Source: a bacterium
GTDB lineage: Bacteria > JAMCPX01
DNA length: 31,543 nucleotides
NCBI GenBank assembly: GCA_021789095.1
Contig: JAJYJX010000004.1
Location: forward strand, 1-31,543
Direction: 5' to 3'
Part shown: positions 8,322 to 24,262 of the stretch, piece by piece
Layout of the letters: each line of letters opens with the position of its first letter
Position numbering within the stretch: position 1 is the stretch's first letter
Notes under the pieces: model-generated
Seen by the model: the letters and a program-made list of their open reading frames with translations, nothing else
Database searches by the model: none
Told to the model about the DNA's origin: nothing
Program-made: the position numbers and the translations under genes

Positions 8322-8434
8322 GTAAACTCCGTTAGAAAGGTCGTGGCCTTAAAGCACGCCCTTTCTATCAGGAATTTAAAATTTATCATATTTTATCTCC
8401 GTCATAAATGGCGGGGCTTTCTAACGGGGTAAAC
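8322..8434. repeat. Dispersed palindromic element, copy 1
   Basis: Ends are GTAAACTCCGTTAGAAAG and CTTTCTAACGGGGTAAAC: an inverted core (TCCGTTAGAAAG / CTTTCTAACGGGG) flanked on both sides by GTAAAC in direct orientation. Inside the left end, GAAAGG-T-CGTG pairs with CACG-C-CCTTTC across a short loop. A second small hairpin, CCGTCAT/ATGGCGG, precedes the right end. The middle holds GGAATTTAAA and TTATCATATT, shared with the other copies. It lies in the rpsF leader region, downstream of the SUMF1-domain gene. Confidence 0.85.
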
Positions 8435-8444
8435 CTCAATGATA

Positions 8445-8473
8445 TAGTTAGGGCAGAATATTTTCCTTGTCAA
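8445..8473 (-). promoter_or_regulatory. Possible promoter for the rpsF operon
   Basis: A perfect TTGACA (minus strand, 8468-8473) is followed after 17 bases by TAACTA, a poor -10. If used, transcription would start right beside the right end of repeat copy 1, placing the whole element in the 5' leader. The weak -10 keeps confidence low. Confidence 0.3.
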
Positions 8474-8524
8474 TTAAAAATTCTGTTTTCTGCATGCATT
8501 AACATCTTTTGATCATCCGGGACA

Positions 8525-9460
8525 TCAGGGTTTTGAAGAGGTGACAGCGCAGCGGAATCCGGTATTAACATATCTGTCAGCCGGAGCAAGGTAGTTCCTG
8601 CTTGATGTGCGCAGTTGCCAGGAAAGGTTAAGATAAGAGCCGCCGCGAAGCACCCTGTACGCGCCCTGTCCGGGCCCTTTCGGGTTTTGCTGAGGCGAGC
8701 CGGAATAATAATCAGCAGCATAGAAGTCGTGGACCCAGTTGTACACATTACCTGCCATGTCCATGACCCCGTACGGGCCTGCCCCTGCAGGATAACTGCC
8801 TGCAGGGCATGTAAAGCCCTTGTTAAAGCATGCCTTGTCCGGATCCCATTCGTTGCCCCATGGATATATCCTTCCCTGTGTACCCCTTGCAGCCTTTTCC
8901 CATTCCGCTTCTGTAGGCAACCTCTTTTTAGCCCATTTGCAATACCTGTTTGCCTGATCCCATGACACACAATTTGCAGGATAATTATCCATCCCATGTA
9001 TTCCAAAATTACAACAATCACCGGCAGCGGGTTTTGTACATGCCCCGGCTGAAACACAACCGGCATAATCAGAAACTGTCACATTGTTTGTGTCTATGTA
9101 ATACGCTGACAGGTAAACCCTGTGATACGGTTTTTCATCATCCCTGCACTGAATATCGGCAGGCGCACAGCCCATATAAAACCAGCCTGCAGGTATATAT
9201 GTCATGCCTGCCTTACTGTGCTTGCGGCCTGCTTTCCCAACCCGTGCAGCTTTTAATGATTTGCGATTGGTTGCAGGCTTGTTCTGTGCTGCAGTGCTAT
9301 CTGATCGTTCTTTACCCTTACTATCCTGCGTCTGAAGACCGTAGGCACGGCCGGGAGAAACATACAGTATAATGCCAAGAGCAGCAGCCATAAAAAATAA
9401 CAGACGCGGTACACCGATTCTTGCGGGAAAAAGCTGCGAAGTATATTTACTGTAAAACAC
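8525..9460 (-). CDS. Exported SUMF1/formylglycine-generating-enzyme-fold protein
   Basis: The 311-residue product starts with GTG at 9460, backed by AAGGAGG six bases upstream. A hydrophobic segment (about 18-35, LLFFMAAALGIILYV) is a signal peptide or anchor, followed by a basic linker to about residue 84. The SUMF1 domain fills the rest: MTYIPAGWFYMGCAP, DEKPYHRVYLSAYYID, ANCVSWDQANRYCKWAKKRL with PTEAEWEKAARG, PWGNEWD, GVMDMAGNVYNWVHDFY, RVLRGGSYLN and the final NTGFRCA. In true formylglycine-generating enzymes a cysteine pair follows RGGSY; here the segment is NLSWQLRTSSRN with no cysteine, so sulfatase activation is unlikely. Eight cysteines in the first half of the domain suggest disulfides outside the cytoplasm. 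The role is unknown. Confidence 0.85.
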   Translation of the reverse strand: MFYSKYTSQLFPARIGVPRLLFFMAAALGIILYVSPGRAYGLQTQDSKGKERSDSTAAQNKPATNRKSLKAARVGKAGRKHSKAGMTYIPAGWFYMGCAPADIQCRDDEKPYHRVYLSAYYIDTNNVTVSDYAGCVSAGACTKPAAGDCCNFGIHGMDNYPANCVSWDQANRYCKWAKKRLPTEAEWEKAARGTQGRIYPWGNEWDPDKACFNKGFTCPAGSYPAGAGPYGVMDMAGNVYNWVHDFYAADYYSGSPQQNPKGPGQGAYRVLRGGSYLNLSWQLRTSSRNYLAPADRYVNTGFRCAVTSSKP

Positions 9461-9584
9461 TTTGTCCTCCTTCCTGCTTTATCTGAACCTCAACACAACA
9501 TTCATAAGCATACTACACAGCATGAAAAGAAGATTCAACAAAAATTATTCCCGATGTCCAGGCATGTTTTATGGGAGTTGAAAC

Positions 9585-9624
9585 AAAAAAAATTCCCCTC
9601 CATCATCTTTGGATAGAGGGGAAT
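9585..9624 (-). terminator. Rho-independent terminator of the dnaK-hsp20 operon
   Basis: On the minus strand ATTCCCCTC and GAGGGGAAT form a nine-base stem around a 15-base loop (9592-9624), followed directly by a run of T residues. It lies about 40 bases after the hsp20 stop codon. Confidence 0.85.
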
Positions 9625-9664
9625 CGAAGGAAGAGGTATAGCTGCTTTAAAAGGCCCTGTGCCC

Positions 9665-10114
9665 TTATTCAACCTCTATATTTACCTGTTTTGGCTTTGC
9701 CGCCTCTGTCTTGGGTATCATAACCTCAAGAACACCGTCTTTGAATTTTGCCTTTACCCTATCCTTGTCAACCGATGTAGGAAGAGTAAATGAACGCGTG
9801 AAAGAACCGTAAGCCCTTTCCATCCTGTAGTAGTTTTCCTCCTTGGTTTCCTTCTCAAACTTCCTCTCTCCTTTCAGGGTCAACAGGTTGTCTTTTACTT
9901 CTATAGAAAAATCTTTTTTATCAAGTCCCGGCAGCTCGGCTTTCAGAACTATGCTATCCTTGGTTTCATAGATATCTACTGCCGGATTCCATGAACCTCC
10001 TGCAAGCTCAATATCAGGGAATCTTACCCTGCCAATATTTTCATCAAACAACCTGTTAATCCTGTCCTGAATGGTGGTAAGCTCTTTAAACGAATCCCAT
10101 TTCATTATTGGCAT
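9665..10114 (-). CDS. Small heat-shock protein, Hsp20/alpha-crystallin family
   Basis: The protein (149 residues) holds unfolding proteins in soluble form for DnaK. After an N-terminal arm with FKELTTIQDRINRLFDE, the alpha-crystallin domain runs from about residue 42 (WNPAVDIYETKDSIVLKAEL) through LTLKGERKFEKETKEENYYR to the conserved AKFKDGVLEVMIPK. A C-terminal extension with KQVNIEVE ends the chain. The open frame extends to 10153, overlapping dnaK, but a full AAAGGAGGTGA site (10123-10133) lies eight bases before the ATG at 10114, so I take that start. It follows dnaK by 22 bases and precedes a terminator, so the two chaperones form one operon. Confidence 0.94.
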   Translation of the reverse strand: MPIMKWDSFKELTTIQDRINRLFDENIGRVRFPDIELAGGSWNPAVDIYETKDSIVLKAELPGLDKKDFSIEVKDNLLTLKGERKFEKETKEENYYRMERAYGSFTRSFTLPTSVDKDRVKAKFKDGVLEVMIPKTEAAKPKQVNIEVE

Positions 10115-10122
10115 ACCCGGGT

Positions 10123-10133
10123 TCACCTCCTTT
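10123..10133 (-). promoter_or_regulatory. Extended Shine-Dalgarno site fixing the hsp20 start
   Basis: AAAGGAGGTGA on the minus strand, an almost full complement to the 16S rRNA tail, eight bases before the ATG at 10114. An in-frame GTG overlaps the site itself and is not usable. Confidence 0.65.
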
Positions 10134-10136
10134 ATT

Positions 10137-12038
10137 TTATTTTTTCTCTTCAAACTCTGCGTCTATAACATCTTCTTTGCCGGAAGATTCACTCCTTGCA
10201 CCTGCTTCTGCTCCTTCCTGCCCTGCACCGGTACCGGTTGACGCTTTCTTGTAAATCTCCTCTGCAAGATGATGTGAGGCCTTTGTCACTTGATCTATGG
10301 TTGCTTTCATCTTATCAAGTTCCCTTCCCTGGAGGACGGTCTTTGCTTTATCTAACGTGTCCTGTACGCTCTTAACTTCATCCGGATTCAGCCTGTCCTT
10401 ATTTTCATTTATCAGCTTCTCGGTACCATAGATCAGATTGTCCAGGTTGTTTGCAACCTCGATCTTCTCCTTGTTTTTCCTGTCTTCATCGGCATGCTTT
10501 TCGGCCTCCTTGACCATGTTCTCCACTTCATCCTTGGCAAGTCCGCTCGATGCCGTGATCACTATTTTCTGTTCTTTACTGGTTGCAAGGTCTTTTGCAG
10601 ACACATTCAAGATTCCATTTGCATCTATATCAAAGGTCACCTCTATCTGCGGTATACCCCTTGGTGCAGGGGGCAGGCCCACAAGCTGAAATCTGCCCAG
10701 TGTCCTGTTATCGGTCGCCATCTCCCTTTCACCCTGGAGTATATGAATTTCGACACTCGTCTGGTTGTCAGCAGCGGTTGTAAAGATCTCACTCTTGCGT
10801 GTCGGTATTGTAGTGTTGCGGTTTATAAGCTTTGTCATGACACCGCCCAGTGTTTCTATACCAAGTGAAAGCGGTGTAACATCCAGCAGCAGCACATCCT
10901 TTACCTCGCCTGATAGTACGGCTGCCTGTATTGCCGCTCCAACAGCTACGACCTCATCCGGGTTCACACCCTTATGAGGTTCCTTGCCGAAAAAGTCCTT
11001 TACCATCTGCTGCATCTTCGGCATTCTCGTCTGTCCGCCGACAAGCACCACCTCATTGATATCGGACGGCTTCAAACCTGCGTCTTTCAGGGCCTGTTCC
11101 ATAGGTCCGAAGCTTTTCTCAAGCAGGTCCATGCACAGCTGTTCCAGTTTCGCCCTGCTCAGCTTGAGGATCAGGTGCTTCGGCCCTGATGCATCTGCAG
11201 TGATAAACGGCAGGTTGATCTCCGATTCCATTGTTGACGAAAGCTCTATCTTCGCCTTCTCGGCGGCTTCCTTGAGCCGCTGGATGGCCATTATATCCTT
11301 GCTCAGGTCAATACCCTGATCCTTCTTAAACTCACTTATGATCCAGTCTATGATGCGCTGATCTATATTATCGCCCCCAAGGTGCGTATTGCCGTTCGTG
11401 GATTTAACTTCTACAATGTTTTCACCGACCTCGAGTATGGATATATCAAATGTTCCGCCGCCGAAATCGTACACGGCAATGGTTTCTTCCTTCTTTTTAT
11501 CAAGCCCGTACGCCAGCGCCGCTGCCGTCGGCTCATTGATAATCCTCTTTACATCAAGGCCTGCTATCCTGCCTGCATCCTTTGTTGCCTGCCTCTGGCT
11601 GTCGTTAAAATAAGCAGGTACCGTTATAACTGCCTCTGTTATCTTCTCTCCAAGGTATGCCTCTGCGGCCTTTTTCAATTTCTGCAGGATCATTGCCGAG
11701 ATTTCCGGCGGTGAATACAGTTTACCCTTTATATCTACCCTTACATCCTGATTATCAGCCGATACAACCTTGTACGGCACCATCTTCATCTCTTCGTTTA
11801 CCTCGCCGTACCGTCTTCCCATGAACCTCTTTATGGAATACACCGTATTCTGTGCATTCGTGACAGCCTGCCTTTTGGCAACCTGACCGACCAGTATTTC
11901 CCCCTCTTTTGTAAACCCTACAACAGACGGTGTCAGCCTGCTGCCCTCTTCGTTAGGAATAACAACGGGTTCTCCCTTTTCAACAAAAGCCACAACGGAA
12001 TTAGTAGTACCTAAATCTATACCTATAACCTTTCCCAT
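10137..12038 (-). CDS. dnaK: Molecular chaperone DnaK (Hsp70)
   Basis: DnaK folds and protects cytosolic proteins using ATP. The 633-residue chain has phosphate loop 1 [16 protein letters not shown] at the start, [44 protein letters not shown] and [12 protein letters not shown] of the ATPase domain. The linker is [16 protein letters not shown], then the substrate domain and a lid ending in [12 protein letters not shown]. Two ATG codons start the frame; the second, at 12038, lies seven bases after AAGGAG, whereas the first would touch it. No CIRCE operator and no clear sigma-32 promoter are seen. dnaJ and grpE are not adjacent; hsp20 follows instead. Confidence 0.97.
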
Positions 12039-12045
12039 AATCATA

Positions 12046-12051
12046 CTCCTT
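12046..12051 (-). promoter_or_regulatory. Shine-Dalgarno site fixing the dnaK start
   Basis: AAGGAG on the minus strand, seven bases before the second of two in-frame ATG codons (12038). The first ATG, at 12044, is one base away and so unlikely. Confidence 0.55.
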
Positions 12052-12059
12052 CGATTTAA

Positions 12060-12118
12060 AAATTAATCACTTATATCCCATCGTCAATATTTGTCATGGG
12101 CGGCATAAGATTTGTCAT
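12060..12118 (-). promoter_or_regulatory. Candidate dnaK promoter with two upstream direct repeats
   Basis: On the minus strand TTGACG (12082-12087) and TAATTT (12060-12065) are separated by 16 bases, a weak promoter. Directly upstream, ATGACAAAT occurs twice (12089-12097 and 12110-12118), 21 bases apart, two helical turns, so on the same face of the DNA. This layout is that of an activator binding just before the -35 box. Confidence 0.35.
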
Positions 12119-12165
12119 TCTATTAAATTGAATTTATTTATATATTATAAACCAATGCGTTAAAC

Positions 12166-12186
12166 TGGAATGGATCTTTCATTCCA
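12166..12186. promoter_or_regulatory. Perfect 7-base inverted repeat, possible operator
   Basis: TGGAATG and CATTCCA flank a seven-base centre, 38 bases before the HEAT-repeat gene. It has no U-tract, so it is not a terminator; it may be a protein-binding site in the divergent spacer or a leader hairpin. Confidence 0.35.
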
Positions 12187-12224
12187 TTTATGTATATATA
12201 TATTTTACGCCGGAGTCTAAATAT

Positions 12225-13754
12225 ATGGACATAAAGAATAAGGGACCTGAAATATCAATACTATCGGAGGTAGAAAAGCTGATAAGGCTGTTTTCTTTCT
12301 ACCCTGAAGGACATAACTACTTAAAAATGGCTTCAGCGCGCATTTTTAATACCATGAAACAGCAATTCGGAGGATTGAATGCTGTAAGGTACGGAATTGA
12401 CAGAAGGCATATATACATAAACGGCAACATGCTCGACGGTTTTGACAAACTCTCTAAGCTGCTGTTTTATAAAAGAATTAAAACTCTTATACTCCATAAT
12501 TCAGCGAGGCCTGAAGACCTGCTTGCATTCGTACAGACAGTATCCCGTGGTGATCTTATACTGCCCAGGGACAAAAGTATTAAGCAGATGCTCTTTGCAA
12601 ACAATGTTTCGGGCATAGAGGTGGAAGAGGTTGATTATGACACGATCCGTGAAGAACTCGAAAATGAAACAGAGCAGCAATCAGAAGCACAGGAGGAAAA
12701 TGTAAACCTGGAAAATGTCGTTCAGGACCTGACAGACGACGAACAGGAAGCGATAAGGCTCGTCAACCTTATAGAAAAAGAAACCAATCCCCAGAGATAT
12801 ACCGATCTGTCTGATGAACTTGCGGCGATAATAAGAAGACTTGTGGAAATAGACAGGTATGAGATACCGCTTATTGCAGTAAGGACATATACCCAGCACG
12901 TATACCAGCAAAACAAAGCGCCCTCGATTGCAGCTACAGCGAGAAAACAGGTTGAAGGTATCTCGATGGAAAAAGGCATGGTCCACCAAATCGCAGTACC
13001 GATAGTGACGGGGAACCCGTATTACTACAGCCTGTCCGTTAAGACTGTAAAACTCATAGGGGAACCGGCAATCGAGGAGTTGGCGGGCAGCATGATCAGA
13101 ACAGAAACCATGCAGTCATTGAAATTCATTGCTGGCGCATTAACGGTATTTCAAAAGCAGGCTTACCAGCACTTAAAGACTGTTATACTGTCAGATAATT
13201 ATAAGGCGGCAGTTATAGCTATTGACGCTGCATCGAATATCAAATCAGGCGCGGAATCTACCATAGCAGCAGGATTAAAACACAAGGACATGCGGATCAG
13301 GAAAAAGGTATTACAGTCACTGTTTGAGCTCAATACCATACACGGCAACAACATGATCGACAAACTGCTTGAGGAGAGAAAGGACCAGAGGCTGGTTGAT
13401 CTGATTATCAGCATGATCGGAAAGTACAAAAGGAACATGTTTGTTTCGGGGATAAAGCATATAATGACGGATGCTGTTTTACCGTATTCCATGAAACATA
13501 ATGCTGTACTTGTTCTGGGCGAACTTGGCAGTAAAGAAGCAGCACAGGCAATTATTGATTCCGTTTTTAACCCCGCTTCTCTTTTGCCAAGGCAGTACCC
13601 GGCCATCAAACTGGCAGCAATAAAGGCACTCGGCGTATCGATGAATGAAGTTGCTATTGCAAATCTTATTAAATTGTTGGAAAGTAATGAGGAGCAGTTG
13701 AGATCGACCACATGGAATACACTTTACGAGATGGGTAAGAGAATAAATGTCTGA
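12225..13754 (+). CDS. HEAT-repeat protein with N-terminal domain shared with the next gene
   Basis: The 509-residue protein has no signal peptide or membrane helix. Residues about 10-145 form a domain marked by RLFSFYPEGH, a central strand pair (YGIDRRHIYINGNML), the helix RPEDLLAFVQTVSR and a closing VSGIEVEEVD. Then comes an acidic Glu/Gln-rich linker (about 146-170). The rest is helical, with HEAT-like units such as KDMRIRKKVLQSLFEL, MKHNAVLVLGELGSKEAAQA and AIKLAAIKALGVSMNEVAIA. HEAT repeats usually bind proteins, so a scaffold role is likely; no catalytic motif is visible. GGAG lies nine bases before the ATG. Its 3' end overlaps the HD-GYP gene by eight bases, so the two are probably made together. 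Confidence 0.85.
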   Translation: MDIKNKGPEISILSEVEKLIRLFSFYPEGHNYLKMASARIFNTMKQQFGGLNAVRYGIDRRHIYINGNMLDGFDKLSKLLFYKRIKTLILHNSARPEDLLAFVQTVSRGDLILPRDKSIKQMLFANNVSGIEVEEVDYDTIREELENETEQQSEAQEENVNLENVVQDLTDDEQEAIRLVNLIEKETNPQRYTDLSDELAAIIRRLVEIDRYEIPLIAVRTYTQHVYQQNKAPSIAATARKQVEGISMEKGMVHQIAVPIVTGNPYYYSLSVKTVKLIGEPAIEELAGSMIRTETMQSLKFIAGALTVFQKQAYQHLKTVILSDNYKAAVIAIDAASNIKSGAESTIAAGLKHKDMRIRKKVLQSLFELNTIHGNNMIDKLLEERKDQRLVDLIISMIGKYKRNMFVSGIKHIMTDAVLPYSMKHNAVLVLGELGSKEAAQAIIDSVFNPASLLPRQYPAIKLAAIKALGVSMNEVAIANLIKLLESNEEQLRSTTWNTLYEMGKRINV

Positions 13755-15105
13755 GAACGAACAATTTAATGAACTGATAACATTATTTACAGGGACTGTA
13801 AAAAACCTGTCGCTCTATCCAAAAACACATCCTACGATACAAACAGCCGTTAAAAAGGTAAACGAGATATTTCACAAACTCTTGGCAACCCGCAGAGAGG
13901 TCGTTATTGCTGTCATAAAGAATACCCTTTTAGTTGAGAAGACCCCGTTCTACACCACCACCAAGGGAATAGAGGAATTTATAGACAGGCTGTCCAGCAT
14001 AGGAATCAACGGCATCGTATTCAACAGGACTATAAACGAGAAAGAGATCCTTATCCTGTTCGAGAGCCTGTCGATACCGCCCGAAGAGCTTAAACAGCAG
14101 AACGGCATAACAGAAAGGCTGAAGATTTTCGGTGTAAAGGGCGTAGAGATAAAAAAGATAGAAGAAGACCTGAAAACAGAGATCTTCAAAACATACACAG
14201 CAGCGAGGGATGAGATCGTTAACATAATGAGCGAACTCAGACTCGGCCGTCTGCCAGAGAAAACAGCAATAAAAGAACTGATAAGGGACCTTCACGACTC
14301 AATGCTGAAAGACAAAAACACGCTGCTGTGCCTTACCATGCTTCAGGATTATGATGAATATACGTTCAATCATTCTGTGAATGTCGGAATATTGTCGCTT
14401 ATGCTTGCGCAGGAACTCGGATTTAAGAGCGACGATTTGTTTTACATAGGGCTTGCAGGTATTCTCCACGATATAGGCAAAACAAGGGTACCGCGCGAGA
14501 TCATATTAAAACCTTCAAAGCTTAACGATGAAGAATGGAATGAAATGAAAAAACATCCTGTTTACGGCAGGGACATCATAAAAGAAATAGGCGGCATAAG
14601 TGACATTACAGCGCATTTCGTTTTATACCACCACTTGAGATATAACCTTGATGGCTACCCTGTATCAGACGGATTGACATCACAACCTGAAGGTTCAAAG
14701 ATAATAGCAATATCAGATACTTATGATTCTATGACAACACTCAGGCCGTATCAGAGACGGTTTGATCCAAGAGAATCCATTGATTTTCTATCCAGACAAT
14801 CCGGTGAGAATTTCTCGCCTGAATATGTAAAAGTATTTATAAAAGCACTCGGCATATACCCGATCGGCTCTGTCGTAAGGCTCGACACCAATGAGGTCGG
14901 CGTTGTGATAAAAACAAATGATACAAACCCGCAGAGGCCTTCAATAAGACTGATTCTTGATTCATCGGGCAATATCGTAAACCAGATAGAGGAGCTGTTT
15001 CTTGAAGAAAAGGATGCATCAACAAGGCAATACAAAAGGACGATAGTCTCCCCTGTTGGAAGTGCCCAGCAGGGCCTGATAGACCTTAACAAATATATAA
15101 AATGA
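13747..15105 (+). CDS. HD-GYP domain phosphohydrolase, predicted cyclic-di-GMP related
   Basis: HD-GYP proteins hydrolyse cyclic-di-GMP or related signals. This 452-residue protein has the N-terminal domain (about 5-142) seen in the upstream HEAT protein, marked by NLSLYPKTHP, then helices and the catalytic domain at about 205-375. Metal ligands are visible: FNHSVNVG (His209), LHDIGK (His241, Asp242), MKKHPVYG (His270) and HH at 295-296. The signature segment is YHHLRYNLDGYP, a variant of HHE-x-DGxGYP: the Glu is Leu and the first Gly is changed, but DGYP is kept. SDTYDSMTTLRPYQR closes the site. A small C-terminal strand-rich segment (380-435) follows. It may act on c-di-GMP or bind it weakly. 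Confidence 0.92.
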   Translation: MSENEQFNELITLFTGTVKNLSLYPKTHPTIQTAVKKVNEIFHKLLATRREVVIAVIKNTLLVEKTPFYTTTKGIEEFIDRLSSIGINGIVFNRTINEKEILILFESLSIPPEELKQQNGITERLKIFGVKGVEIKKIEEDLKTEIFKTYTAARDEIVNIMSELRLGRLPEKTAIKELIRDLHDSMLKDKNTLLCLTMLQDYDEYTFNHSVNVGILSLMLAQELGFKSDDLFYIGLAGILHDIGKTRVPREIILKPSKLNDEEWNEMKKHPVYGRDIIKEIGGISDITAHFVLYHHLRYNLDGYPVSDGLTSQPEGSKIIAISDTYDSMTTLRPYQRRFDPRESIDFLSRQSGENFSPEYVKVFIKALGIYPIGSVVRLDTNEVGVVIKTNDTNPQRPSIRLILDSSGNIVNQIEELFLEEKDASTRQYKRTIVSPVGSAQQGLIDLNKYIK

Positions 15106-15108
15106 ATC

Positions 15109-15154
15109 CAGTTAGAAAGGACGGCGCGCTTTTGACAGGGTGCCCCTGCCGTCT
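15109..15154. repeat. Degenerate fragment of the dispersed element, possible terminator
   Basis: CCAGTTAGAAAGGACG matches the left end of the element (CCCGTTAGAAAGGACG). The rest differs, but GGACGGC and GCCGTCT still form a hairpin at its place. It lies exactly between the converging ends of the HD-GYP and peptidase genes, where the hairpin could help terminate both. Right end missing. Confidence 0.4.
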
Positions 15155-16316
15155 ATTTCGTAGTATCCATGTTGTTTGAATCGATCGCCTTTATCATGTC
15201 CGATGCAAACTCATAAGCAAGGTCTACTGTAGAAGCCTGGATATTTTCGAACACGTCCGTTTCCCAATGCCAGTTCGGTAATATACCGTGTTCGTCGAAC
15301 GCCATAATGCTCATTGCCCTGTATCCCCTTGATAAAGGGACAAGTGCGTCGGTTGACATGGTCGTAAATACCCTTGGTGTGATACGCGTCAATTTTTCTT
15401 TTGCAAGCCGATCTGCAATGGCAACCATGGTGTGATCTGCCGGATACTTTTTTATCATACCCTCTTCTATTACGTATGATACATTCCCGGAACCGCAGTT
15501 ATCAATGTTGATGATAAAGGCGTCCTTCAAAAGCTGTTGATGTTTCCTTGCAAACCACAGCATACCTGCCATACCGACCTCTTCGGCGCCTGTTGCAACA
15601 AGGTAAAGCTCCGTATTGACAAGCTGTTCGTTCCTGAATCTTTCCGCAATGCCGAGCATCACACCTACACCCGATGCATTGTCATTTGCACCATGCGTAT
15701 GTCTTCCCTTCAGTTCCCTGTGTACAAGCAACGCCACTGTTACGAGCGGATCAAGCGCCAGAACACCAACAAGCACTTTCAACCATACAACGTGCGTTAT
15801 CCAGTACATGGCTGTAAAGATGAATATCAAAAACATGGATATAACCAGCCCTATAAAGGTATTCCTGAAACCTTTTACAAATCCCGGTGAGAACATAATG
15901 CCGGAGCGTGATGAATCATAATGCGCTGTTACTATTACCCTGTTTTTGTTCCTTCCTCCGGCCGGTATATATCCTGTTACATTGCTGGATGTCCTTTTGG
16001 GCAACAAAATTGCAACAATCTCAAAAGACGTGTTTTCCAGAAAGAATGTTATGCACCCAGCACCGGTAAGTATAACGGCAGCAGCAGTGGAATGGAGCAG
16101 GAGCAAAACAGCACCTGCTATGCTCATAAGATAAATAAGCATGTAAGGATAGGAAAACGATGTGATTGTTTTAAAAGGTTCCACGGAATTTTTAATTCCG
16201 GACGTGTTCAATGTATCTTTTATGTAATCCCTTGCCCGGTATTCACCGGCCGTGGCAGTACCTCTGGGACCTATCCTTACGGACAGGTTATAAATATGAT
16301 CCAGTACAGGCGTCAT
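15153..16316 (-). CDS. Membrane-embedded M28 family zinc metallopeptidase
   Basis: M28 peptidases are di-zinc aminopeptidases. All usual ligands can be found in the 387 residues: VTAHYDSSRSG (His132, Asp134), HGANDNASGV (Asp212), TGAEEVG (Glu245 catalytic, Glu246), INIDNCG (Asp272) and NWHWETD (His350). Unlike soluble members, there are hydrophobic helices at about 57-75 and 78-94 before the catalytic region and two more (152-173, 178-198) inserted between the first and second ligand motifs. The active site would thus be built around a membrane hairpin. There is no separate signal peptide. A GAGGAG site precedes the ATG. It is monocistronic. Substrate unknown. Confidence 0.88.
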   Translation of the reverse strand: MTPVLDHIYNLSVRIGPRGTATAGEYRARDYIKDTLNTSGIKNSVEPFKTITSFSYPYMLIYLMSIAGAVLLLLHSTAAAVILTGAGCITFFLENTSFEIVAILLPKRTSSNVTGYIPAGGRNKNRVIVTAHYDSSRSGIMFSPGFVKGFRNTFIGLVISMFLIFIFTAMYWITHVVWLKVLVGVLALDPLVTVALLVHRELKGRHTHGANDNASGVGVMLGIAERFRNEQLVNTELYLVATGAEEVGMAGMLWFARKHQQLLKDAFIINIDNCGSGNVSYVIEEGMIKKYPADHTMVAIADRLAKEKLTRITPRVFTTMSTDALVPLSRGYRAMSIMAFDEHGILPNWHWETDVFENIQASTVDLAYEFASDMIKAIDSNNMDTTK

Positions 16317-16504: not shown

Positions 16505-16555
16505 GCTGAGTAACTTTAAGATAACAAAATTACCCGTTTAGCAATAAACGTTTTT

Positions 16556-16861
16556 TTATCTGTATCCTCCGCCCCTGCTGCCCCCGTATCCACCTCTTCT
16601 GGGGCCTTCTCTCTTCTCCATTGGCCTTGCCTCATTCACCTTGATGTTTCTGCCCTTTACGTCAGTGCCATTCAGCTGTTCAATGGCTTTTTTTGCCTCT
16701 TCATCGTTTGTCATTTCTACGAATCCGAAGCCTTTTGAGCGATCCGAGTACTTATCCTTGATTATGGTAACACTCTGAACCGCGCCAAGTTTCTCAAACA
16801 ACCCTTTTACATCCTCCTCTGTGGTGTCAAACGTCAAGTTTCCTACATACAGTTTTAACAT
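16556..16861 (-). CDS. Glycine-rich RRM RNA-binding protein
   Basis: This 101-residue protein is one RNA recognition motif plus a short tail. RNP2 is KLYVGNL at residues 3-8 and RNP1 is KGFGFVEM at about 43-50, with the aromatic residues that stack on RNA present. The tail is Gly/Arg rich (RRGGYGGSRGGGYR), like cyanobacterial and other bacterial RNA-binding proteins that are often cold induced. It would bind single-stranded RNA in the cytosol. An AGGAGG site lies just before the ATG. It is monocistronic, with a strong terminator after it and a copy of the dispersed element 63 bases before the start codon. Confidence 0.95.
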   Translation of the reverse strand: MLKLYVGNLTFDTTEEDVKGLFEKLGAVQSVTIIKDKYSDRSKGFGFVEMTNDEEAKKAIEQLNGTDVKGRNIKVNEARPMEKREGPRRGGYGGSRGGGYR

Positions 16862-16924
16862 TCTTTCCTCCTATATTTAAAGTATGACTTATTTTTTTAT
16901 AAAAGTAAATAACAACAGGAACAA

Positions 16925-17034
16925 GTAAACCCCGTTAGAAAGGACGTGGCTTTAAACCACGCCCTTTCTATAAGGAATTTAATGATTATCATATTATCCC
17001 TACCATATATGGTGGGGCTTTCTAACGGGTTAAA
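16925..17034. repeat. Dispersed palindromic element, copy 2
   Basis: Left end GTAAACCCCGTTAGAAAGG, right end CTTTCTAACGGGTTAAA. The internal hairpin is the best of the set: GAAAGG-A-CGTGG pairs with CCACG-C-CCTTTC around CTTTAAA. The second hairpin is ACCATATATGGT, a perfect palindrome flanked by CCCT and GGGG. The conserved core ATAAGGAATTTAA and TATCATATTAT joins them. It occupies most of the gap between the Nudix and RRM genes. Confidence 0.88.
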
Positions 17035-17062
17035 AAGGAGTGGGGTTAAATTTTATTGCGGT

Positions 17063-17635
17063 CTATACAGTGACTGATCTTATTATATCAACGAGCGACC
17101 TTATAAACCTGCACGTGAGCCCCCAGATAAAGTATTTGTCATAGGTATAGCCGTTTATCGTGAACTCATTGTCGATTATCCTTACCCTGGCCGGCTTATA
17201 ATTCGATTCATCCATAAAAAATTCAAACGGCACGGTAAACACCTCGACGACTTCCGATATCTGCAGATTGAACACCGGTTCTGTTTTAAGGATGGCTGCG
17301 TACGGTGTTATAATGTACCCGCTCAAAGGCACTGAGTCATCATGGAACCTGCCGAGTATTTCAAGTTCGCTGCTCTCTACGCCGATCTCCTCGTAGGTCT
17401 CGCGCAGTGCAGCATGAAGTGCCGTCTCACCCTTTTCCATGGAACCGCCCGGGAAAGAGATCTGATCGGAATGATACCCGATCCCCTTTGCTCTCTGCGT
17501 GAACAGGAGGTGGGTTTCACCGTTCTTGTTGAGGAATATTGCAAGCACAGACGCCCGCCGCATACTGTCGGAAACCAGTTCACTCGGTTTTATATGCTTG
17601 AGTCTGTCCCTTACTACGGCTATATAGTCAGGCAT
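17063..17635 (-). CDS. Nudix hydrolase, CoA pyrophosphatase type
   Basis: The Nudix box is complete: GGSMEKGETALHAALRETYE followed by EIGV gives the G-x5-E-x7-RE-x2-EE-x-G pattern. The preceding LLFTQRAKGIGYHSDQISFP is the UPF0035 motif that marks the NudL/PCD1 group, which split coenzyme A into 4'-phosphopantetheine and adenosine 3',5'-bisphosphate. The 190-residue length is normal for that group. It is cytosolic. It is the last gene of the C1/acetyl-CoA operon, 24 bases after the thiolase, which fits a role in clearing damaged or surplus CoA species. Exact substrate inferred from motif. Confidence 0.9.
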   Translation of the reverse strand: MPDYIAVVRDRLKHIKPSELVSDSMRRASVLAIFLNKNGETHLLFTQRAKGIGYHSDQISFPGGSMEKGETALHAALRETYEEIGVESSELEILGRFHDDSVPLSGYIITPYAAILKTEPVFNLQISEVVEVFTVPFEFFMDESNYKPARVRIIDNEFTINGYTYDKYFIWGLTCRFIRSLVDIIRSVTV

Positions 17636-17659
17636 ATATCCTGAAGAGCAGGCATTTAT

Positions 17660-18835
17660 TCACACTCTCTCTACGATCATTGCGACCGCTTCGCCGCCGC
17701 CGATGCAAAGGGTAACAAGGCCGGTTGATTTGTTCATGTCCTGCATTGCATGTAACAGCGTAACCAATAGTCTTGTGCCGGACGCACCTATGGGATGACC
17801 CATTGAAACGGCGCCCCCCCTTACATTTACCCTTGCATAATCCAGCCCCAGCTGATCGACTGCTGCCATTGCTACAACTGCAAAGGCCTCGTTGATCTCA
17901 TACAGGTCTATATCTTTCGTAGTCATGCCTGCTTTTCTGACAGCATTTTTTATCGCATCAACAGGTGCTATAGTGAACCATTCCGGAGCCCTGGCAGCCT
18001 GTGCCGATACTATAATCCTTGCCATGGGCTTGAGCCCCAGCGCCTTTGCATTGTCTTCATCGGTAACGACAACCGCACCTGCGCCGTCGTTTATTGTTGA
18101 AGCATTTGCGGCAGTTACCGTACCGTCCTTCACAAATGCAGGCTTCAATGACGGTATCTTGACAAAATCGACTTTGGCAGGCTCTTCGTCCTGTTCCACG
18201 GAAACCGTCTCCTTTTTGCCCTGAACTTCAACCTTTACGATCTCGCGCTTGAACATGCCCTGGCTGATGGCGTTCTGCGAACGCTTGTAGCTCTCTATTG
18301 CGAACTTATCCTGCGCCTCCCTTGTGTAATGATACTCCTTTGCACACAGCTCTGCTGCATTGCCCATATGGAAATTGCTGTAAGGATCCCATAGTCCGTC
18401 CCATATCATTGAATCTACAAGGGTCCCATTGCCCATCCTGTAACCCGTCCTTGCCTTATCAAGGAAGTAAGGCGCACTGCTCATATTCTCCATACCTCCT
18501 GCCACAACAATGCCTGCATCACCTGCCCGTACCATCTGATCCGCAATCATGACCGATTTAAGCCCTGAACCGCAGACCTTGTTGATCGTCAGCGCACCGA
18601 CGTGATCGGGTACGCCTGCATACCGCATTGCCTGCCTTGCAGGCGCCTGGCCTTCACCGCCTGTCAGCACATTGCCCATTATGACCTCGTCTATTTTCGA
18701 AGGATCGATACCCGCTCTTTTTACTGCTTCTTTGATCGCTGTGCTGCCGAGCTGCGGTGCGCTCACGCCCGAGATCGAGCCCATAAAACTTCCAACCGGT
18801 GTTCTTGCCGCACTTACAATCACAGATTTTTTCAT
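17660..18835 (-). CDS. Acetyl-CoA C-acetyltransferase (thiolase)
   Basis: Thiolases join two acetyl-CoA into acetoacetyl-CoA or split it back. This 391-residue protein has normal length and the three active-site blocks: NKVCGSGLKSVM with the acyl-carrying Cys88, GGAVSMGHPIGASGTR with the histidine, and TLCIGGGEAVAMIVERV with the second cysteine. EGQAPARQA and the NDGAGAVV block are also typical. It resembles the biosynthetic (AtoB/ThlA/PhbA) group rather than FadA, judged by eye. The start has a good AAAGGAGG site. It lies 13 bases after gcvPA in the C1 operon, where gcvPB would be expected, and no beta-oxidation partners are nearby. Confidence 0.95.
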   Translation of the reverse strand: MKKSVIVSAARTPVGSFMGSISGVSAPQLGSTAIKEAVKRAGIDPSKIDEVIMGNVLTGGEGQAPARQAMRYAGVPDHVGALTINKVCGSGLKSVMIADQMVRAGDAGIVVAGGMENMSSAPYFLDKARTGYRMGNGTLVDSMIWDGLWDPYSNFHMGNAAELCAKEYHYTREAQDKFAIESYKRSQNAISQGMFKREIVKVEVQGKKETVSVEQDEEPAKVDFVKIPSLKPAFVKDGTVTAANASTINDGAGAVVVTDEDNAKALGLKPMARIIVSAQAARAPEWFTIAPVDAIKNAVRKAGMTTKDIDLYEINEAFAVVAMAAVDQLGLDYARVNVRGGAVSMGHPIGASGTRLLVTLLHAMQDMNKSTGLVTLCIGGGEAVAMIVERV

Positions 18836-18848
18836 GGTAAGACCTCCT

Positions 18849-20225
18849 TTATGGTGCCAGGAGCGCTCTGAGCTGCTTTACGAATTTGTCTATTACTTTC
18901 TTGCTGTGGACCTCAGTAACATTCACAAGCAGGCAGTTTTCCATATCTGCATAATAAGGTTTCAGCATTACTCCGGGCATGTATCCATGCTTCATCATGG
19001 TGTTATAAATATCATCGAGATCCTTTATCCTGACAACAAATTCATTAAAAAATGGACCTGTGAACGGGAATTCCAGACCGTTTATCGTGGCGAGCTTGCC
19101 GCGGAGGTAACCCGTGAGTTCATGATTGATTCGCGCCGTCCGCATAAGCCCGTTTTTACCGGTAAGGCTCAGGTAGAGTGCAACAGCTATGGCAAGAAGG
19201 CCTTCGTTGCTGCATATATTGGACGTTGCCTTTTCCCTGCGTATATGCTGCTCCCTGGTTGCTAAGGTCAATGTGTATGCACGGTTGCCGTCCTTATCGA
19301 CGGTTTCACCGACAAGCCTGCCGGGGAGCTGCCGTACGTACTCCTTTCTCGATGCGATAACACCGATATAAGGCCCGCCGTAAGACAAAGGTATGCCGAA
19401 CGACTGGCTCTCCATTGCAACTATGGATGCTCCGAGTTTGCCCGGGGGCACAAGCAGTCCTGTCGACATTGCCTCTGCTACAACTGCAATTGACAGCGCC
19501 TTTTTATCCGAGGCGATCCTGAAAAGTGTATCGACGGGATCTATGACGCCGAAGAAATTCGGATAACCTGCAACAACACATGCGGTCTTCTCGCTGACCT
19601 TTGCAGCGAGATCGGGCGACGACGTCATACCGGTTTTATGATCAAACGGCACATACTCTATATCTACATCCATGCCCTGGGTATAGGTATCGATAACCTC
19701 CCTGTAATGCGGGTGAAGTGCCTGTGAAACAAGCACGTGCTTCCTGCCTGTTATACGGCATGCCATTAAAATCGCCTCTGCACATGCCGATGCACCGTCG
19801 TACATGGAGGCATTGGCAACATCCATGCCGGTGAGCATTGCAATATAGCTCTGGAACTCGAACACGGACTGCAGGGTGCCCTGTGCTGTCTCCGGCTGGT
19901 ACGGCGTATAGCTTGTCACAAACTCCGAACGGCCCAATACGTAGTTCAGTGCAGAAGGTATAAAATGCCCGTAAGCGCCTGCACCGGCAAAACTTATCAG
20001 ATCAGCTGCCTTTTCATTGAAGCGTGCAAGTGCGGCAATCTCCTCAAGGACCTCCTGCTCTGTCAAAGGCGCTGAAAATGGATGTGCTTTCTTAAACGCC
20101 TTTTCAGCCCGCGTCCTGATATCCGCGGGGATACAAGAAAACAGTTCCTCGATACTGTGAACGCCAATGGCATCAAGCATCTGCTGTTTTTCTTTATCTG
20201 TGAGGGGAATAAATGGCAGTTTCAT
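18849..20225 (-). CDS. gcvPA: Glycine dehydrogenase (decarboxylating) subunit 1
   Basis: This is the N-terminal half of the two-part P-protein of the glycine cleavage system, which decarboxylates glycine and passes the aminomethyl group to the H-protein. Its 458 residues match the GcvPA length. Seen are FIPLTDKEKQQML at the start, the YTPYQPETAQGTLQSVFEFQ block, GMDVANASMYDGASACAEAI, SFGIPLSYGGPYIGVIA and RLVGETVDKDGNRAYTLTL, with TREQHIRREKATSNIC after it. The pyridoxal-phosphate lysine is on the partner subunit GcvPB, which is not in this window, so the enzyme needs a gene elsewhere. It follows gcvH by 33 bases. Confidence 0.95.
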   Translation of the reverse strand: MKLPFIPLTDKEKQQMLDAIGVHSIEELFSCIPADIRTRAEKAFKKAHPFSAPLTEQEVLEEIAALARFNEKAADLISFAGAGAYGHFIPSALNYVLGRSEFVTSYTPYQPETAQGTLQSVFEFQSYIAMLTGMDVANASMYDGASACAEAILMACRITGRKHVLVSQALHPHYREVIDTYTQGMDVDIEYVPFDHKTGMTSSPDLAAKVSEKTACVVAGYPNFFGVIDPVDTLFRIASDKKALSIAVVAEAMSTGLLVPPGKLGASIVAMESQSFGIPLSYGGPYIGVIASRKEYVRQLPGRLVGETVDKDGNRAYTLTLATREQHIRREKATSNICSNEGLLAIAVALYLSLTGKNGLMRTARINHELTGYLRGKLATINGLEFPFTGPFFNEFVVRIKDLDDIYNTMMKHGYMPGVMLKPYYADMENCLLVNVTEVHSKKVIDKFVKQLRALLAP

Positions 20226-20258
20226 GGTTTTAACCTGGTCCTAACGGGCTTAAACGGT

Positions 20259-20657
20259 TCAATCAGCTTCCTTGCAGTATTTCTCGTATGCATCTGCATC
20301 AAGGAGCTTCGCCATCTCGCTGTTCATGGAACCCTTGGGGTCTGCCGAAAGCCTCACCATCCATGCCTTGTTGTATGGATCCTTGTTGATAAGTTCGGGA
20401 TGGTCGATCACCTCTTTGTTTACCTCTTTGATACTGCCGCTCAACGGCGTAAACACATCGGAAACAGACTTTACCGATTCTACAGTGCCCAGTTTGTCGC
20501 CCTGCTTAAGTTGTGTACCGGTCTCTCCAAGCTCTATGAATACAATGTCCCCGAGTTTATCCTGCGCATAATCCGTTATACCGACAGTTATGGTGGAGCC
20601 CTCGATACGCGCCCATTCATGTTCCTTCGTGTACTTCAAATCCTTTGGTAACTGCAT
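20259..20657 (-). CDS. gcvH: Glycine cleavage system H protein
   Basis: GcvH carries the lipoyl arm that shuttles the aminomethyl group among the glycine cleavage enzymes. From the start chosen here it has 132 residues: KYTKEHEWARIEG, GITDYAQDKLGDIVFIELGE, the lipoylation loop GTVESVKSVSDVFTPLSG with its lysine, and PELINKDPYNKAWMVRL. The frame opens with an ATG at 20669 that overlaps the GGAGGTGA ribosome site, so translation must start at the ATG at 20657. It sits between gcvT and gcvPA. Confidence 0.97.
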   Translation of the reverse strand: MQLPKDLKYTKEHEWARIEGSTITVGITDYAQDKLGDIVFIELGETGTQLKQGDKLGTVESVKSVSDVFTPLSGSIKEVNKEVIDHPELINKDPYNKAWMVRLSADPKGSMNSEMAKLLDADAYEKYCKEAD

Positions 20658-20659
20658 AT

Positions 20660-20667
20660 TCACCTCC
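20660..20667 (-). promoter_or_regulatory. Shine-Dalgarno site fixing the gcvH start
   Basis: GGAGGTGA on the minus strand, with its GGAGG core five bases before the ATG at 20657. The in-frame ATG at 20669 overlaps the site, which rules it out. Confidence 0.65.
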
Positions 20668-20669
20668 AT

Positions 20670-21740
20670 CTATTTTTTTATAAACGGCAGTTGGACAATG
20701 GTACCGGTGTGAAGAATACTTCTTATGTCTATACCAACATCGACGGCCTCAATGTTATTATCAATATAAGCCATTGCAATACCGCGTGAAAGCGAGGGAG
20801 AGTATGTGCCTGTCGTCACCTCGCCGATAACCCTGTCTTTCAGCAGCACCGGATTCTGGTGCCTTGGTATCGATTTTCCGTTCATAATAATACCAACAAG
20901 TCTTTTTGATATGCCCTGCCGTGCGGCGGATGCCAGGGCGTCCCTGCCTATGAATGATTTTTTGTCCATTTTAATGACCCATCCAAGATTCGCCGACAGC
21001 GGCGTCATCGTTTCGCTGAGTTCCATGCCGTAAAGCGGATAACCCATCTCCGCACGCAGCGTATCCCTTGCGCCAAGCCCGACAGGCTTTATACCATGGG
21101 TTCTTCCGCTGTCCATAAGAGCATTCCACAGATCAACAACAACAGATTTATCAACGAAACATTCATAGCCGTCCTCGCCCGTGTATCCAGTCCTTGATAC
21201 GTACACCTGCTTATTCATAAAGTCACGGACGTCAAAACTGAACCTCTTGAGCCTGCTTACAGAAGGGAAAACAGGCTCGGCCACCCTGCCCGATAAAGGG
21301 CCCTGCACCGAGATCATGCCTATATCCTGCGACATGTCATCAATACTTATATTCCCCCGTTTGTTCTGCACGATCCACCGGAAATCTTTATCCGTGTTCG
21401 ACGCATTAACACAAAACATGAACGACTTGCCTGAAAGCCTGTATATGATCATATCATCTATAACTCCGCCCCGCTCATTGAGAAGAAAGGTATACTCTGC
21501 CTGGCCTTCGGCAAGCCTTGATACATGGTTCGGTGTCAACCATTCGCAGAAAGACTCTGCATCTTCGCCCTCTATAAAGATCTCGCCCATATGACTCACA
21601 TCAAAAATGCCCGCCCTGTTCCTTACCGAGAGGTGCTCGTCAATAATACCCGTGTACTGCAAAGGCATTTCAAACCCGCCGAACTCCATGAATCTGGCAC
21701 CGAGTTTTTTATGTGTTTCGTAAAGAGACGTGTAGTGCAT
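20670..21740 (-). CDS. gcvT: Glycine cleavage system T protein (aminomethyltransferase)
   Basis: GcvT moves the C1 unit from the lipoyl arm of GcvH to tetrahydrofolate, giving methylene-THF and ammonia; it can run in reverse for glycine synthesis. The 356-residue length is usual. Landmarks are ARFMEFGGFEMPLQYTGI, RNRAGIFDVSHMGEI, the FLLNERGGVIDDMIIYRL block, SRTGYTGEDGYECFV, GLGARDTLRAEMGYPLYG and VGEVTTGTYSPSLSRGIA-like VIGEVTTGTYSPSLSRGIA near the end. It starts one base after the metF stop codon. Confidence 0.97.
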   Translation of the reverse strand: MHYTSLYETHKKLGARFMEFGGFEMPLQYTGIIDEHLSVRNRAGIFDVSHMGEIFIEGEDAESFCEWLTPNHVSRLAEGQAEYTFLLNERGGVIDDMIIYRLSGKSFMFCVNASNTDKDFRWIVQNKRGNISIDDMSQDIGMISVQGPLSGRVAEPVFPSVSRLKRFSFDVRDFMNKQVYVSRTGYTGEDGYECFVDKSVVVDLWNALMDSGRTHGIKPVGLGARDTLRAEMGYPLYGMELSETMTPLSANLGWVIKMDKKSFIGRDALASAARQGISKRLVGIIMNGKSIPRHQNPVLLKDRVIGEVTTGTYSPSLSRGIAMAYIDNNIEAVDVGIDIRSILHTGTIVQLPFIKK

Positions 21741-21741
21741 G

Positions 21742-22608
21742 CTAAATCCTTTCCAGGAGGGTCAGTATATCCCTTTCCTGTCCCACGGTCATAATGTGCA
21801 TGCCCCGTGAAATCCCTCTCAGTCTGCCGGTAAGCTCAACAGCTATATCTATCCCTTCATTATGGGGATCCGAGGACGATTCGAGCCTTTTGATAAGCGT
21901 ATCGGGTATATGTATGCCGGGCACCTGCGTATTAAGATTAACCGCCTGCTCTGCCGAATGGAGGAGCAGTATGCCTGCCATAACAGGTATCCCGAACCGG
22001 TTTATTTTAGACATGAACGATGCAAACGCATCCGTGTCAAAAACGGGTTGTGTCTGAAAGAACTTTGCACCCGCATTTATCTTCCGTTCCATTGCCAGAA
22101 GCACGGGCTCGAGCGGCTGTGCCTGCGGTGTCAGGGCAGCACCGGCGAATAAGTCCGTGTGGCCCTTGAGCGGGTGATCGTTGAGATCGAATCCGGAGTT
22201 AAGTTTTGTTATTGTGTGAAGAAGGGTTGTGGCATCGAGATCGAACACGGGCTTTGCTTCAGGAAAATCGCCTGCGGAAGGATGGTCCCCTGTAAGGGCA
22301 AGCACGTTCTTTATTCCCAACGCGGATGCTCCCAGGAGATCCGACTGCAGCGCGAGCCTGTTCCTGTCCCGGCATGTGATCTGGTACACAGGCTCTACAC
22401 CCTCCCTTAAAACAAGGTACGATGCTGCGAGCGAACTCATGCGCATGATAGCCCTCTGGTTATCCGTGATATTGATTGCATGCACCCTGCCTTTAAGGCT
22501 GTGCACCATTTTTATGAAATTTGTAACAAGGGTGCCCTTCCTTGGAGACAGTTCTGCGGTGATCACAAATTCATTGTTTTTAATGGCATCACGCAGGAGC
22601 GACATCAA
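21742..22608 (-). CDS. metF: Methylenetetrahydrofolate reductase, short MetF type
   Basis: MetF reduces methylene-THF to methyl-THF. The 288-residue protein is a flavin TIM barrel: VITAELSPRKGT with the catalytic Glu19, HAINITDNQRAIMRMSS, YQITCRDRNRLALQSDLLGA, NVLALTGDHPSAGDFPEAK and GAKFFQTQPVFDTDAF are all present, the last few being flavin-binding. Its immediate partner metV makes it the MetVF-type enzyme known from acetogens, where the iron-sulfur subunit supplies electrons. Its ATG overlaps the end of metV. The product can feed methionine synthesis or the methyl branch of the Wood-Ljungdahl pathway. Confidence 0.93.
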   Translation of the reverse strand: MMSLLRDAIKNNEFVITAELSPRKGTLVTNFIKMVHSLKGRVHAINITDNQRAIMRMSSLAASYLVLREGVEPVYQITCRDRNRLALQSDLLGASALGIKNVLALTGDHPSAGDFPEAKPVFDLDATTLLHTITKLNSGFDLNDHPLKGHTDLFAGAALTPQAQPLEPVLLAMERKINAGAKFFQTQPVFDTDAFASFMSKINRFGIPVMAGILLLHSAEQAVNLNTQVPGIHIPDTLIKRLESSSDPHNEGIDIAVELTGRLRGISRGMHIMTVGQERDILTLLERI

Positions 22609-23264
22609 CGAGCCTTCCCCGAAAACTTCAATGGTTCAACCTTCCTGTGTTTCATACTGTTATTTGTTTTCGGCTTGTTTATTGCGGTAAGGACATTCTG
22701 TTTATTCCGGAGTCTGAGCCTTTCGTATATATCGATCCATATGCATTTCATGCTGTTGTCGACTTCGCACATGCTGTTTATCATGCCGCCGCACGGACCG
22801 TTCAGCAGGCCCTTGGGACACCGTGTGACCGGACATATGCCTGCCGTATATGAAAGCACGCAATTGCCGCACATGGAGCAGTACTTTAAAAATTCGCCCG
22901 CCCTGTACGTCGTCCCGAGGAACATGCTGTTCAGTCCCGCAACAATGGGTTTATCCGATGCGGCTGATACTGCCTGGATGCCTGCACCGCATGCAAGCAC
23001 AAGGAACGCATCAGCAGAAGACGCCGCTTCCGACTGTCGTATCATGCTCTTTAACAGGAATACGTGGCAGGTTTCTTCCGGTATAAGGTAACCGGCAGGC
23101 TCTTTGCCCTTGCTGCCCAGATCCCTGATCCATGCTTTGCACTCGTCCTCTCCGCCTGTCCTGCTTGCAGCCGCACATGAACCGCATCCCACGACAAAAA
23201 TCCTGTTATATTCTGATAAAGCCTCGAGGACTTCTTGCAGGGGCTTTTTATCTGTTACAATCAT
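22605..23264 (-). CDS. metV: MetV-like iron-sulfur/zinc partner of MetF
   Basis: This 219-residue protein matches the 'methylenetetrahydrofolate reductase C-terminal' family. The N-terminal part contains VVGCGSCAAASRTGG and a Rossmann-like LVLACGAGIQAVS. The C-terminal third has the cysteine cluster YCSMCGNCVLSYTAGICP then TRCPKGLLNGPCGGM, fit for an iron-sulfur cluster or zinc. A lysine-rich tail of about 30 residues is of low complexity. In acetogens MetV is the partner through which MetF receives electrons. It starts one base inside the folD stop codon (TAATG) and its end overlaps metF by four bases, so co-translation is tight. Confidence 0.88.
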   Translation of the reverse strand: MIVTDKKPLQEVLEALSEYNRIFVVGCGSCAAASRTGGEDECKAWIRDLGSKGKEPAGYLIPEETCHVFLLKSMIRQSEAASSADAFLVLACGAGIQAVSAASDKPIVAGLNSMFLGTTYRAGEFLKYCSMCGNCVLSYTAGICPVTRCPKGLLNGPCGGMINSMCEVDNSMKCIWIDIYERLRLRNKQNVLTAINKPKTNNSMKHRKVEPLKFSGKAR

Positions 23265-24115
23265 TACCGGATCTGCCTCTCGGTGGCGATAAGCGTATTC
23301 CGCATCAGCATGGCAATGGTCATGGGGCCGACCCCTCCGGGCACGGGTGTTATAAATGACGCTCTTTTTTCCGCCTGCTCAAATTCAACATCACCTGCGA
23401 GCTTACCGCCCGGCGACCTGTTCATGCCCACATCTATTACAACAGCACCCTGTTTGATCCACTCGCCCTTGACAAGCCCCAGCCGGCCTGCTGCCGCAAC
23501 AAGGATGTCCGCCTGTTTTACTATCCCGGGGAGATCCCGCGTTTTTGTGTGACACATTGTTACCGTCGCATTGGCAGCAAGCATCATCAATGCAAGCGGC
23601 TTCCCGACAAGGGTGCTCCGCCCTATAATGACAACGTGTGCGCCTGAAACAGGTATTGAATACCTCTGAAGAAGCATCATGATACCGAGAGGCGTGCACG
23701 GATACAGGGCCTCCTCGCCGATAACAAGCCTTCCCATATTTGAGGGGAGAAGGCCGTCCACGTCCTTATGCTCGTCTATCATATTAAGGAGAGACCTTGA
23801 ATCAATGCGCTTGGGCAGCGGCATCTGGACAAGTATACCGTTGTACTGCGCGTTATGATTCAGTTCGAGTATCAGTATTTCGAGTTCTTTCTGTTCAACA
23901 TCGGATGAGAAGCTGAATGTCCTTGAATGTATACCGACATCATCGCACGCCTTCTGCTTGTTTCTCACATAGGTCACCGACCCGACATCATCGCCTACAA
24001 GGACTACGGCAAGGCCCGGGATTACCTTGTACTCGGACCTGAGCCTGTCTACCTGTTCCTTGACCTCGAGCTTTATCTGAAGCGCAACGCTTTTGCCGTC
24101 TATTATCTGTGCCAT
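23264..24115 (-). CDS. folD: Methylene-THF dehydrogenase/methenyl-THF cyclohydrolase FolD
   Basis: FolD interconverts methylene-, methenyl- and formyl-THF using NADP or NAD. All blocks are present in 283 residues: VTYVRNKQKACDDVGI with the catalytic Lys53, NGILVQMPLPKRID, KDVDGLLPSNMG, the nucleotide-binding HVVIIGRSTLVGKPLA and the final PVPGGVGPMTIAMLMRNT. It is the first gene of the folD-metV-metF-gcvTH-gcvPA operon. A copy of the dispersed element begins 37 bases upstream of its ATG. No formate-THF ligase (fhs) gene is seen in the window. Confidence 0.97.
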   Translation of the reverse strand: MAQIIDGKSVALQIKLEVKEQVDRLRSEYKVIPGLAVVLVGDDVGSVTYVRNKQKACDDVGIHSRTFSFSSDVEQKELEILILELNHNAQYNGILVQMPLPKRIDSRSLLNMIDEHKDVDGLLPSNMGRLVIGEEALYPCTPLGIMMLLQRYSIPVSGAHVVIIGRSTLVGKPLALMMLAANATVTMCHTKTRDLPGIVKQADILVAAAGRLGLVKGEWIKQGAVVIDVGMNRSPGGKLAGDVEFEQAEKRASFITPVPGGVGPMTIAMLMRNTLIATERQIR

Positions 24116-24152
24116 TAAAACAATATATCAATTAGAAATGTATGGTTGTCAA

Positions 24153-24262
24153 GTAAACCCCGTTAGAAAAGGTGTAACTTTAGACTACACCCTTTTTACA
24201 AGGAATTAAACTTTATCATATTATCTTCACTTAAATGGCAGGACTTTTTTAACGGGGTAAAC
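24153..24262. repeat. Dispersed palindromic element, copy 3
   Basis: Left end GTAAACCCCGTTAGAAAAGG, right end CTTTTTTAACGGGGTAAAC. It is the most diverged copy, but its hairpin is kept with a new stem sequence: GGTGTA pairs with TACACC in place of the CGTGG/CCACG stem. The core AAGGAATTAAA and TTATCATATTATC remains; the second small hairpin is poor. It fills the divergent gap between folD and the rightward barrel gene. Confidence 0.82.

Follow-up and report, generated by a model that had tools for sequence, protein, structure and literature searches.

The window, as we call the whole stretch of 31,543 nucleotides analysed here, carries three near-complete copies of a palindromic element on one strand, each beside a leftward gene (rpsF, an RRM gene and folD), together with a half-element and a degenerate relic of one end:

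8327..8429 (103 bp), + strand: element copy 1, with TAAA at 8323-8326 and 8430-8433; 48 bp upstream of the leftward rpsF
16930..17030 (101 bp), + strand: element copy 2, with TAAA at 16926-16929 and 17031-17034; a leftward RRM gene and a leftward NUDIX gene on either side
24158..24257 (100 bp), + strand: element copy 3, with TAAA at 24154-24157 and 24258-24261; the leftward folD and a rightward gene on either side
24258..24274, + strand: half-element (TAAACCCCGTTATAGAA), starting in the right TAAA of copy 3, which the two share
15103..15119, + strand: degenerate relic half-end (TGAATCCAGTTAGAAAG), whose TGA is the stop codon of an ORF ending at 15105

Aligned with their flanks (8323-8433, 16926-17034 and 24154-24261, all +), the three copies have a mean column identity of 81%, and they stand 48, 63 and 37 bases from the start codons of rpsF, the RRM gene and folD, respectively. 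Their ends, CCCCGTTAGAAAG and CTTTCTAACGGGG, are inverted while the flanking TAAA is direct, with CTCC in copy 1 and GGGT in copy 2. An earlier note on this DNA had described three near-complete palindromic copies on one strand before these genes, and the coordinates, identity and folding agree with that description. Its inverted ends with an outer TAAA as direct repeat are likewise confirmed, but it had missed the half-element at 24258-24274 and the relic at 15103-15119. The left-end 17-mer was found with up to 3 mismatches at 7 sites in the window, against 0.07 expected from shuffles, and on either strand each window copy folds better than its shuffled versions (z −3.2 to −6.0), which together rule out chance. 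The common orientation of the three copies has a chance of 1 in 4 and is unremarkable.

Our searches of the source genome (2.15 Mb, 203 contigs), on which the copy counts rest, revealed 32 BLAST matches and 104 occurrences of the exact 11-mer end CCCCGTTAGAA, with 0 in the reversed-sequence control. A covariance-model search of the kind that the earlier note had proposed, here with a model built from 17 copies, also found many copies in this genome: it gave 104 hits at E ≤ 1, including cases in which both strands of a single place were hit. The source phylum is sampled by only nine species, all from one family; 7 of these have BLAST matches and 6 the exact 17-mer, and none of 32 genomes from other families gave a BLAST match. 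An 18-mer scan of 84,980 species genomes returned at least 109 stretches, where we estimate that ~7 would be expected by chance, and the matches listed belong to Nitrospirae, Deltaproteobacteria/Syntrophaceae/Desulfobacteraceae, Omnitrophica, several Patescibacteria, Nitrospinota, Elusimicrobia and WOR-3. In most of the cross-phylum stretches listed, the other end is found a short distance away. The phyla bearing the element with its core included are Nitrospirota, Desulfobacterota, Omnitrophota, Patescibacteria, Nitrospinota, Elusimicrobia and WOR-3; the ~100-bp core can be aligned across them and differs by lineage. This spread is patchy, with the element in 23 of 395 genomes of the Nitrospirae phylum of G053 and in 14 of 384 genomes of the Omnitrophota phylum of G059 (reversed controls zero), and the element-rich genomes have 154-159 ends each. 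No exact 18-mer was found in IMG/VR contigs, and no match in PLSDB plasmids and phage records. Nearly all hosts are metagenome assemblies, as would suit a cross-phylum spread made up of mis-binned contigs only, but given up to 159 end copies per genome on many contigs, the lineage-specific differences of the core and zero reversed-control matches in ~780 genomes, we attach hardly any credence to this explanation. We also observed that two genomes listed as separate species within a genus, G008 (L040) and G001 (L047/L257), have a 1.7-kb stretch in common, at ~97% identity and with the element included.

The full form of the element runs TAAA - CCCCGTTAGAAAG - left hairpin - AT-rich middle - right hairpin - CTTTCTAACGGGG - TAAA, where the left hairpin is GGACGTGG..CCACGCCC, then CTTTCTA, and the right hairpin is CCCCGCCATAAATGGCGGGG. 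The 13-bp ends that form the terminal inverted repeats are conserved in 45 full-length copies, and 185 inverted pairs were gathered. Element lengths without the TAAA flanks have a main peak near 100 bp and a second at 30-39 bp, and mostly range from 29 to 190 bp, and the copies are dispersed, with tens of them in each genome; no genes were seen inside the larger elements that were read by eye. The short form is a 41-bp palindrome (TAAACCCCGTTAGAAAGGACGGGGCTTTCTAACGGGGTAAA) that we infer to have arisen from the full form by deletion of the core between its two CGGGGCTTT stretches. Compensatory changes were found in both inner hairpins, at 16 of 21 pairs (53 cells, where shuffling gives 22 and sliding no more than 25). 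G-T cells and A-C cells occur in similar numbers (33 and 24 in the right hairpin, 37 and 36 in the left). There is thus no clear preference for either strand, as would follow if selection acts on the DNA and not on a transcript. Replication template switching in the palindromes could be an alternative source of the compensatory changes. Nested small hairpins with related ends were also observed inside larger elements of two Deltaproteobacteria assemblies (L282, L283, L286, L291 and L091:542-570), for instance, the 29-bp CCCCGTAAGAGACCGAAGGTCTTACGGGG with TGAG on either side.

The element has inserted into copies of itself. At L079 one copy sits in the right-hairpin loop of another, as CCA-TAAA-[CCCCGTTAG...CTAACGGGG]-TAAA-TGG with CCATAAATGG as the outer core, and L118 is likewise an element within an element, with CCCA on either side. 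One orthologous site is filled in G000 (L012) and G004 (L053), with TAAA on both sides, and empty in G001 (L260), with a single TAAA (GGATAAAGGAGG). Because G001 and G004 are congeneric, this site records either the precise loss of an old insertion or two insertions into the same place. Several more sites, with degenerate flanks, hold the element in one genome but not in another. TAAA flanks both sides in 116 of the 185 element pairs, and identical flank pairs other than TAAA were found 8 times (TCAA and TAGA twice each, CAAA, TGAG, CCCA and TGAA) against 0.9 expected, a result seen in 0 of 20,000 shuffles; flanks with TGAA or CAAA on one side only are common. Since the non-TAAA flanks are duplicated as well, the repeat is derived from the target and is no fixed part of the element, and the outer TAAA does stem from duplication of the target. 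The base preceding TAAA is G in 88 of 139 cases and the following base is near random, suggesting a target of roughly aGTAAA. Clearly reversed flanks were seen only at L019, 1 of the 27 elements of G000, so the direction of the target is tied to that of the element. The nested insertions, the filled and empty orthologous site and the matching non-TAAA flanks thus support what the earlier note had raised as one reading, a miniature inverted-repeat transposable element (MITE) with a target duplication. At L072 the element directly follows a tRNA-like sequence, and the empty relative has only a T-run at that spot.

We conclude, with a probability of roughly 80%, that the palindromes are a non-autonomous miniature inverted-repeat mobile element, whose copies are lineage-specific and in some cases lie inside other copies. 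The unit CCCCGTTAGAAAG - core with two inner hairpins - CTTTCTAACGGGG inserts into a target of four bases, in most cases TAAA and frequently with G before it, and the target is present on both sides of the element after insertion. An enzyme encoded elsewhere would recognise both ends and move the element in trans. As TAAA nearly always has one direction relative to the core, this enzyme or its target complex appears to distinguish the left end from the right, which would be easier to reconcile with an enzyme that processes folded ends than with a transposase of pure two-fold symmetry. Counted against the mobile-element reading, the 29-41 bp forms are smaller than usual transposase substrates, the flanks are degenerate at the further filled and empty sites, TGAA or CAAA often stands on one side only, and no autonomous element with these ends was found in the loci examined.

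The placement of copies before start codons had led the earlier note to suggest a promoter or leader role. The nearest start codons are often 3-40 bp off, and tandem, divergent and convergent gaps are occupied at about background rates, the convergent ones being somewhat low. When genes are called by simple ORF rules, copies in the same and the opposite orientation as the downstream gene number 14:14 in the source genome, 17:5 in the family, 26:14 elsewhere and 57:33 in all sets. The right flank reads TAAA(0-3 purines)GGAG in 11 of 182 cases and the mirror position in 0, and for 9 of the 26 tandem gaps in the cross-phylum set, the ORF upstream stops 1-2 bases into the left TAAA (distance -1 or -2), so the TAA there can serve as a stop codon. 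Such insertions are likely tolerated, since the stop codon and ribosome site stay intact after TAAA duplication. Placement before start codons is therefore largely explained by insertion into TAAA, often within TAAAGGAG (Shine-Dalgarno) or TAA stop codons. Copies would persist mainly where the duplicated TAAA preserves a TAA stop or the TAAAGGAG Shine-Dalgarno, and such survival would let them build up just before genes without regulating those genes. The pattern is accounted for without a regulatory role, and side effects on single genes are possible.

A cis-regulatory leader, promoter or attenuator of rpsF, the RRM gene and folD would agree with the distances of 37-63 bp ahead of the start codons, with the two alternative stems and with the orientation excess over all sets. 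We nevertheless consider it very improbable given the even orientation in the source genome, the diversity of the genes concerned, the several copies that lie within called ORFs or are missing at orthologous sites of relatives, and the absence of a clear G-T excess over A-C; further, no family of the Rfam 15 covariance models scored over its gathering score in the window. Tabulating strand and position against start codons, as the earlier note had recommended, revealed no orientation rule in the source genome, and its promoter or leader suggestion is not upheld. Between rpsF and copy 1, at 8280-8322 (-), the RpsF leader family (RF02893) scored 17.6 bits, below its threshold of 37, and the gene order after this stretch is rpsF-ssb-rpsR.

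We found no autonomous element with the same ends in the examined loci, nor at the places listed for two element-rich genomes, and among those listed the candidates for a long gene-bearing element between such ends were only composite, nested hairpins. The window also contains a XerD-type tyrosine recombinase gene (29238-30143, +), by its look an ordinary chromosomal gene without a link to the element. If the element were a conventional MITE derived from a DDE insertion sequence that makes 4-bp duplications, with the parent lost or outside the sampled assemblies, this would be a narrower version of our best explanation that names the enzyme class. The 13-bp inverted ends, the 4-bp duplication and the dispersed copies are as expected for such an element, and the ends resemble those of piggyBac/IS1380, which we take as a lead only. 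However, with a two-fold-symmetric transposase, TAAA and TTTA would be expected equally often relative to the core, and they are unequal here; the one-way target thus argues against a purely two-fold-symmetric transposase. No parent was found, and IS1380, the DDE family that was searched (PF13701), was not found in G000, G004, G008, G041, G042, G050 and G055; the piggyBac/IS1380 lead was rejected as the transposase was not found in many element-rich genomes. We therefore regard a DDE parent as possible but doubtful. We suggest with similar reserve that the element may represent a class of its own among small hairpin mobile DNAs, present in several phyla, in which units down to ~30-40 bp in length would be inserted one way into TAAA by an undescribed recombinase acting on folded ends.

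Another possibility is that a RAYT moves the element as a REPIN, or that a Y1 HUH transposase moves it as a derivative of IS200/IS605, in which case single-stranded excision would be followed by insertion 3' of TTTA and the TAGAAAG before each hairpin would be the guide. In IS200/IS605 elements each end has a hairpin nearby and the target is T-rich and directional, and a target duplication is not expected of them. Our element resembles them in its hairpins near the ends and its directional target, but its right and left flanks vary together; the matching non-TAAA flanks would be unexpected if the right cleavage site belonged to the element and argue against the standard IS200/IS605 scheme. TAGAAAG does precede both hairpins on the bottom strand, the target is one-way, Y1 genes were found in 26 of the 27 searched host genomes, and at L124 an element lies ~220 bp from a Y1 gene. 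The plan of two inverted conserved ends and a variable spacer also matches that of REPINs, although these are defined by their linkage to a RAYT (PMC3116915). Set against this, element ends were almost absent from ~33 Y1 loci searched together with flanks of up to 1.5 kb, Y1 genes are present in 25 of 36 background genomes, the element-free relative G002 has 7 of them, and none was found in the element-bearing G008 (80% complete). Given the near-absence of ends around Y1 genes and the commonness of Y1 in background genomes, we see no RAYT/Y1 linkage, and we judge movement by a RAYT or Y1 enzyme to be unlikely.

Neither CCCCGTTAGAAAG nor a description of this element family was found in the literature searched. 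REPINs share with the element a size of ~70-110 bp, paired inverted ends, a spacer, extragenic positions, many copies and hairpins (PMC3116915); the element differs in its 4-base target duplication, its presence in several phyla and the lack of any RAYT found flanked by the repeats. REPINs have a GTAG-type tag at the foot of the hairpin; the ends of our element contain GTTAG, at another place than the hairpin foot. Correia/NEMIS, RUP and ERIC elements, which have a common TA terminus, are likewise ~100 bp long and extragenic, with terminal inverted repeats, target duplication and RNA-like folds (PMC2229807), whereas our element has a directional 4-base TAAA target, other ends, another host range and no parent insertion sequence that we could find. 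CGTC-tagged REPs are also hairpins found in several phyla without a dedicated transposase, but they are short single stem-loops with stems of 8-9 bp, and their sequence and ends are unlike those described here (PMC3733652). The element thus resembles a MITE in the way it works and a REPIN in its appearance, without the RAYT linkage that defines REPINs and with no parent found.

Bacterial miniature elements usually belong with a single genus and with an insertion sequence that has matching ends. The element described here is one sequence, core and all, found across several phyla whose members are mostly uncultured; it inserts into copies of itself and takes a 4-base target in one direction, and no enzyme was found for it. 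Once found, the enzyme would reveal either a transposase of very broad host range or a new route of hairpin insertion. For annotation, it follows from our reading that such conserved palindromes ahead of genes are probably insertions rather than regulators. Finally, on a short contig of G042 (L284) we observed head-to-tail repeats of an element-bearing unit of ~330 bp, which may be an assembly error or a real array.
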